This document shows positions 62,369 through 64,000 of a DNA stretch of 64,000 bases, piece after piece (position 1 is the first letter of the stretch; every line of letters starts with the position of its first letter). Source of the DNA: Bdellovibrionota bacterium (GTDB lineage: Bacteria; Bdellovibrionota; Bdellovibrionia; Bdellovibrionales; Bdellovibrionaceae); contig CAUJGP010000022.1 of NCBI GenBank assembly GCA_963170155.1, positions 1 through 64,000 of the forward strand, in the 5' to 3' direction. The translations under genes were made by a program, and so were the position numbers. The notes beneath the pieces were generated by a model. The model worked only from the letters and a program-made list of their open reading frames with translations. It was not told where the DNA came from and did not search any database.

Positions 62369-63124
62369 TTAATTAAGGCAATCACAAACATAACTTTTTG
62401 CCGGATCTCGACGACACTTGATTAAATGCCCTTCATCTTTAATGGAAATGCTTGCCATCACGTCATTCCATTTTTCAATGCCAATCTGTAAATCATTATT
62501 GAGTTGCACTAAACGAGTTTCAGCCAGCTTCGTCACTTCGCCCTGACTCTTGAGATGTTCAAACGTCACAAGATCCCGCTCTAAATTATCAGGCAAATCC
62601 ACAGAGCGAGGAAACCCATCTTGATCATTTTCGTGCCAGTAAAGATCGCCTCCTTCATCGGGACTAATCCACTCATACACTAAGGTCCGAGTCTTCCCAT
62701 CCTTCATGGTCAAGGTAGCTCTTCGCTCTAACAGTAAATCTTCTTGCACCGGCCCCAACTCATTTTTTAAGGCCACCAAAAACTGATTTAAATCCCCTTG
62801 CACTTTGGAGACTTGCATAATAGCGCCTTCTCCAAAACACATTTTTACTTCATCCAAAATAGGTCCGGCAAAATCAAAACTAGAGGATGCAACAGGAATT
62901 TTTAAAGTTTTAGGATTTGCTGTGGAAGACTCTTTCTTAAGTAAACTGGAGCCCCAAAAAGTTTCAGGAAGCCTTAGCCGAGATTCTGTAATAACAGTTA
63001 TCGCTCGAGCTTCATTCATTGTAATTTCAGGAAGGCCATATTTTTGCCACCACTGATAGGGGTACCAATAACCCCATAATACAAACAAACTTAAGAAGAT
63101 AGAATAAAAAGGACCGTTCTTCAT
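62369..63124 (-). CDS. Membrane-anchored periplasmic protein, unknown
   Basis: About 251 residues from ATG 63124, with AAGG six bases upstream; the longer frame to 63190 lacks a ribosome site. One N-terminal hydrophobic segment (F-Y-S-I-F-L-S-L-F-V-L-W-G-Y-W-Y-P-Y) with few charges before it, so an uncleaved anchor. The remainder is a soluble alpha/beta part with a Cys pair near the end (C-R-R-D-P-x-x-S-Y-V-C-D-C). No family recognised. Shares the 172-bp divergent region with the truncated barrel gene. Confidence 0.6.
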   Translation of the reverse strand: MKNGPFYSIFLSLFVLWGYWYPYQWWQKYGLPEITMNEARAITVITESRLRLPETFWGSSLLKKESSTANPKTLKIPVASSSFDFAGPILDEVKMCFGEGAIMQVSKVQGDLNQFLVALKNELGPVQEDLLLERRATLTMKDGKTRTLVYEWISPDEGGDLYWHENDQDGFPRSVDLPDNLERDLVTFEHLKSQGEVTKLAETRLVQLNNDLQIGIEKWNDVMASISIKDEGHLIKCRRDPAKSYVCDCLN

Positions 63125-63231
63125 CGCGAACCTTAGACCATAATCCAGAAAAAAGCGCAAGTGGAGAGCTACTTCATGAAAATTGATCATTCAATGTGTC
63201 GTTTTAAGACACTCCAATAAAGTTGTAGATG

Positions 63232-63284
63232 CCTCCACTAAAATGAATCATAATAAAGATAAATAAAATTCATTTTAGTGGAGG
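63232..63284 (+). promoter_or_regulatory. 17-bp perfect inverted repeat masking a Shine-Dalgarno site
   Basis: CCTCCACTAAAATGAAT (63232-63248) and its exact complement ATTCATTTTAGTGGAGG (63268-63284) are separated by a 19-base A/T-rich loop. The right arm contains the GGAGG (63280-63284) of the gene starting near 63297. If transcribed from upstream of 63232, the mRNA would hide that site in a strong stem. It may be an RNA thermometer, a riboregulator or, as DNA, a large operator. Confidence 0.6.
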
Positions 63285-63296
63285 GATCCTGAAGTG

Positions 63297-64000
63297 ATGC
63301 GCATAATTGGCCTCAGCCTTGTAATTTGTTCTCTCTTGCTCACCCCCTTGGATTCTGAGGCTAAAAGAAAAAAACGCTCTAAGCCCTCCAATTATGGTCG
63401 AGCCCCCGCTCAAATGCATCCAGGTAATGATTCTGATAGCGAAGAAGATGTCTTTGATCCCTTTGCTGATTTTTCAGAGTTTGAATCCAATCCCGAAGAA
63501 GAAGAAGACATTAATTTTTTCAAAAATGGACGAATGCTCACCGTTGGATTTTTGGGAGGGATGATTAACTACACGGGTGAAATGGCCCAAAAGCATCAAT
63601 CCTCTTTTCGTTACGGCCTCTTTGCCAGTTACTTTTTTGATTTGCGCTTCGCCGTTCAATTACAATGGCTCGGCACGGATTCCCCTGTCTCTTATCGAGC
63701 CCCTAACTCGAACCTCGTCGGTAACTCCAGCCTCAGTTCTCTGGGCTTCGCGGTGAAGTACTTTTTAAACACTCAAAATGTTAAGAAAGGCTTAGCGGAT
63801 CTCAATCCCTATTTCTTCCTGGGAATGTCCAGTTACACGAGAGTCATCCATTTCAGCGCGATCAGTGGCAGTCTCTCCGATAAACCCATGGGATTTAGTG
63901 GCGGAATGGGTATAGAACTCCCTATGCTTAGGAAGAAAATGTTTTGGGGAGCTCAAATCACCTATGATCTCGTTAACTTTAAAGATGAAAATCGACCTTT
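63297..64000 (+). CDS. Outer-membrane beta-barrel-like protein, truncated by the window end
   Basis: About 234 visible codons; open to the last base, so the C-terminus is missing. The start is ATG 63297 or GTG 63294; SD GGAGGG at 63280-63285 suits either. Signal peptide: M-R-I-I-G-L-S-L-V-I-C-S-L-L-L, cleavage near S-E-A. A Lys/Arg run, then an acidic segment with E-E-E-E-D, then alternating hydrophobic strands ending in aromatic residues (L-T-V-G-F-L-G-G-M-I-N-Y-T-G, F-R-Y-G-L-F-A-S-Y-F-F). These fit an OmpA/OMP_b-brl-type barrel. The family is not assigned. The leader can fold into a hairpin that covers the ribosome site. Confidence 0.65.
   Translation, partial: MRIIGLSLVICSLLLTPLDSEAKRKKRSKPSNYGRAPAQMHPGNDSDSEEDVFDPFADFSEFESNPEEEEDINFFKNGRMLTVGFLGGMINYTGEMAQKHQSSFRYGLFASYFFDLRFAVQLQWLGTDSPVSYRAPNSNLVGNSSLSSLGFAVKYFLNTQNVKKGLADLNPYFFLGMSSYTRVIHFSAISGSLSDKPMGFSGGMGIELPMLRKKMFWGAQITYDLVNFKDENRP

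Follow-up and report, generated by a model that had tools for sequence, protein, structure and literature searches.

A perfect 17-bp palindrome lies immediately upstream of a conserved outer-membrane beta-barrel gene in a Bdellovibrionota genome, where one of its arms contains the gene's Shine-Dalgarno site and the best -10 matches fall across its left arm and loop. The arms are unique in their own genome and absent from the relatives that we searched. Our preferred explanation, which we put forward tentatively and with somewhat less than even confidence, is that this is a lineage-specific palindrome covering both the core promoter and the ribosome site, that the native transcript starts inside it, and that only RNA begun further upstream would be silenced. 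Considering how common such repeats are in these genomes, the evidence does not mark this one as a special regulatory device, and we think it most probably an unremarkable feature of recent origin. The analysis concerns a contiguous 64-kb stretch of DNA (the window), whose relevant features are as follows.

62369 to 63190, minus strand: divergent gene of 273 aa, without a family match; translation may actually begin at ATG 63124.
63196 to 63212, no strand assigned: upstream dyad TGTGTCGTTTTAAGACA, candidate operator of the barrel gene, matching the ortholog dyad at 11 of 14 positions.
63228 to 63288, no strand assigned: extended imperfect hairpin with 21-nt arms, 95% complementary.
63232 to 63248, plus strand: left arm of the perfect 17-bp inverted repeat, CCTCCACTAAAATGAAT, the exact reverse complement of the right arm.
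63249 to 63267, no strand assigned: A/T-rich loop of 19 nt, with the -10-like CATAAT at 63249-63254 and the start of TAAAAT (63264-63269).
63268 to 63284, plus strand: right arm, ATTCATTTTAGTGGAGG, carrying the Shine-Dalgarno GGAGG at 63280-63284.
63294 to 64000, where the window ends (the gene continues to contig position 64079), plus strand: conserved outer-membrane beta-barrel gene of 260 to 261 aa, starting at GTG 63294 or ATG 63297.

A preliminary description of this region had reported the perfect repeat and the position of GGAGG within its right arm, 12 nt before ATG 63297, and both observations were confirmed: the arms match at 17 of 17 bp, and GGAGG also lies 9 nt before the in-frame GTG 63294. 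Allowing one mismatch extends the stem to the 21-nt arms listed above, and the bases directly 3′ of the stem are GATCC. No other perfect inverted repeat in the window is as long, the runner-up measuring 13 bp. The downstream product, previously described as of outer-membrane type, does resemble outer-membrane beta-barrels (PF13505, E value of 7e-6, just under the Pfam cut-off), and comparisons with solved structures and NCBIfam gave no match. It is a conserved protein, present in 64 of 66 family genomes with one match each, and its named relatives belong to the Bdellovibrionales. Its surroundings are not conserved: none of the neighboring genes is shared with relatives, and the divergent 273-aa gene is not syntenic in them. 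At the Shine-Dalgarno position most orthologs carry AGGGGGA, with a run of five G, versus GGAGGG in the window.

The palindrome itself appears confined to this lineage. It is present as a single copy in its own genome, the exact-arm pattern had zero matches among 290 further genomes from the phylum, and a DNA search of 60 genomes returned nothing but short chance matches. Among 39 inspected orthologs of the barrel gene, all from relatives outside the genus, none has a comparable hairpin before the start codon, and the arms matched no RNA family in Rfam. The search of related genomes for the same arms, which had been proposed earlier, thus found them absent both by exact pattern and in the ortholog leaders. 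A mobile or repeated palindromic element of the MITE or REP kind was rejected on the single copy and the lack of any other in the 290 genomes, and a conserved structured leader or riboswitch on the 39 orthologs and Rfam. A REP-like hairpin of a different kind occurs in another genome (G017), with eight copies in 250 kb; its core TGTCTGATAnAATnGCGAAGCnATCAGACT is conserved while its arms covary (AAAGATTA/TAATCTTT and GATGATTA/TAATCATC), and it also stands downstream of one barrel ortholog (L035).

We compared the repeat with its background in the same genome. In five order-3 Markov sequences of 800 kb the longest arm was 14 bp at most, so the repeat itself is not a product of chance. Its length, however, is not exceptional here, because an 814-kb sample of the genome contains 12 perfect inverted repeats of at least 15 bp (14.7 per Mb), including one of 24 bp, and the density in two family members is 12.5 and 28 per Mb. 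Most of the genome's long perfect repeats are intergenic. We put the total for this genome at roughly 40 long inverted repeats; extrapolated from the sample, roughly 35 per genome would be intergenic. When a 53-nt palindrome was placed randomly in non-coding DNA, 3.2% of placements had an arm covering 4 nt or more of a Shine-Dalgarno site. Chance alone should thus produce about one such overlap in each genome, an approximate figure given that the underlying gene calls were simple ORF calls. Two further repeats of this genome can be described individually. An 18-bp perfect inverted repeat lies about 1.7 kb from the palindrome (contig C22, 65026-65070), inside the gene for a 400-aa protein; adjoining this gene are one that is TonB-like and one that resembles TonB-dependent receptors. 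On contig C24 (351671-351721), a 24-bp hairpin, perfectly paired around a 3-nt loop, stands about 20 nt 5′ of a gene of about 400 aa and forms the strongest leader fold among 434 sampled genes.

Whether the hairpin could form in the mRNA depends on where transcription starts. On the plus strand, 5/6 matches to TATAAT begin at 63239, 63249 and 63264, giving predicted starts near 63251, 63261 and 63276, whereas just one candidate would start transcription a little upstream of the left arm (63230), and it matches at 4 of 6 positions. The -35 partners of these matches are poor (3/6 at best), a promoter scan using both hexamers gave no match in this region, and -10-like matches occur on both strands of the loop, where A/T-rich DNA yields them by chance. 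Orthologs offer a second line of evidence. About 20 orthologs of the Bdellovibrio type carry a FliA-like TGAAGTTT-N12-TTCGATAA promoter whose -10 element ends 17 to 19 nt before the start codon; a leader begun there would measure only about 10 to 15 nt, too short for a hairpin. This resembles the FliA-controlled promoters mapped in attack-phase Bdellovibrio bacteriovorus, with consensus TTAAG-N16-CCGATA (PMC3627812), although the window's copy of the gene differs in having no recognizable FliA promoter upstream (best match 10/16, P = 0.88). The window's genome encodes FliA. Because the FliA-like promoter is unrecognizable here, the promoter of this copy may have moved relative to that of the orthologs. 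The best -10 matches, which put the start between 63251 and 63276, and the ortholog geometry both suggest a start downstream of the left arm. A start downstream of 63248 was what the preliminary description had named, together with a lack of protein binding to the palindrome, as grounds for rejecting its interpretation, and these lines of evidence weakly favor such a start.

A second element upstream of the gene is conserved where the palindrome is not. Orthologs with the FliA-like promoter also share a dyad, TGTCTCA-N3-TGAGACA, that ends at -81 to -84, and the window's TGTGTCGTTTTAAGACA matches it at 11 of 14 positions (shuffle P = 0.007) and ends at -82 from GTG 63294. Since the neighbors differ in relatives, the dyad seems to have stayed with the barrel gene itself, and it, rather than the palindrome, is the better-supported operator candidate. 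Its position upstream of the ortholog promoter suggests an activator site; if it is one, the promoter in the window would fall between 63213 and the start codon, the interval that holds the palindrome. Genome-wide, the dyad had 99 matches versus 13 for a reversed control in G006, and 21 versus 8 in the window's genome; in both it also precedes similar-looking lipoprotein or exported-protein genes (L107/L117 and L111/L126). This distribution hints at an envelope regulon. Published work linking TGAGACA to Bdellovibrio did not turn up in a literature search.

The fold of the leader bears on several alternatives. If the RNA includes both arms, the computed energy of the hairpin is -27 kcal/mol at 37°C, and from 4 to 42°C the Shine-Dalgarno site has an unpaired probability near 0. 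RNA of this kind would hardly be translated unaided, because the site is essentially never free. In computed folds of RNA begun in the loop or the right arm, the site is about 35 to 55% unpaired, which would remove the block. The earlier proposal that the stem occludes the ribosome site is therefore physically sound for an mRNA that includes the left arm, and is weakened by a predicted start downstream of that arm. Folding the leader over temperature, a check suggested earlier that we ran from 4 to 60°C, left the site hidden throughout. An RNA thermometer, also suggested earlier for a ribosome site within a stem, is thus scarcely credible: no mismatches tune the melting, pairing of the site still exceeds 99.5% at 60°C (unpaired probability of at most 0.004), and melting cannot expose it at living temperatures. 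We give as little credence to a transcription terminator or attenuator, for which the strong stem would speak. The stem is followed by GATCC instead of a U-run, has a 19-nt loop, scored negative in a terminator scan and lies between divergent genes. The stem could instead act as a leader switch. Transcription would then begin upstream of 63232, and translation would stay blocked by the hairpin until it was opened by a small RNA, RNase III or a helicase. We regard this as unlikely, if worth serious consideration. The hairpin, if transcribed, would be very stable, and this leader fold ranks fifth among the 434 sampled genes, with one uninterrupted stem over the ribosome site. There is a precedent in the 5′ untranslated region of the ISPpu9 transposase, where a very stable stem over the ribosome site would likewise need an outside factor to open it and an antisense RNA has been proposed as the opener (PMC8450116); here, by contrast, there is no mobile element and no known antisense RNA, and the stem may not be transcribed. 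Against a switch stand the missing hairpin in the 39 orthologs, the lack of a good promoter match 5′ of the left arm or of an Rfam match, and the expectation of about one chance overlap with a ribosome site per genome.

If the palindrome acts instead as DNA, a dimeric protein could bind both arms across the promoter and repress transcription. The repeat is perfect and its arms flank -10-like sequences on both strands, but we consider such an operator improbable: the arms have no second copy in the genome and recur neither at other promoters nor in orthologs, and the conserved upstream element is the different dyad described above. Moreover, 17-bp arms spaced 36 bp apart are long and wide for a single dimer. 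Alternatively, the palindrome may be a functionless mutational relic without effect on the gene. Long perfect repeats are common in the genome, one even lying within a coding sequence, and chance should place one over a ribosome site; so strong a stem over the site would nevertheless matter in any RNA containing both arms, and we view a wholly inert relic as distinctly unlikely.

We return to the preferred explanation, a promoter and ribosome site enclosed by a lineage-specific palindrome. We infer that template switching during replication probably copied the ribosome-site segment in reverse to create the palindrome. Template switching is reported to make perfect hairpins in one event (PMC8794818); the likeness is that a perfect reverse-complement stem can come from a single event, and the difference is that this work treats RNA genes. 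The native transcript would then start in the loop or the right arm, lack the left arm and be translated normally, with normal control coming from the conserved dyad at 63196-63212. The hairpin would form, and the ribosome site be covered, only in RNA whose start lies further upstream, so any effect would be the silencing of such stray transcripts. Against this explanation, the upstream neighbor is divergent and a source of stray transcripts is not evident; the exact match of the arms, moreover, implies either recent origin or maintenance. A bolder version, that a promoter nested in a perfect hairpin serves a host gene as a filter of transcript origin, with loop-begun RNA translated and upstream-begun RNA silenced, seems to us improbable. 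Filtering by transcript origin is otherwise tied to transposase genes, some of which avoid outside transcription. In protection of the IS10 or IS200 type, too, the hairpin forms only in upstream-begun transcripts and the native start lies inside; the present case differs in that the gene is a chromosomal barrel gene, the neighbor is divergent and the start is a predicted one.

If the palindrome is functional, this lineage would have acquired strong control, translational or at the promoter, over an outer-membrane protein found across the family, and in one mutational step. As matters stand, the chief result is a calibration: palindromes of this length and perfection are frequent in these genomes, and each genome can be expected to carry one over a ribosome site. 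The conserved dyad beside the palindrome may be the more useful lead to the control of envelope genes in predatory bacteria.
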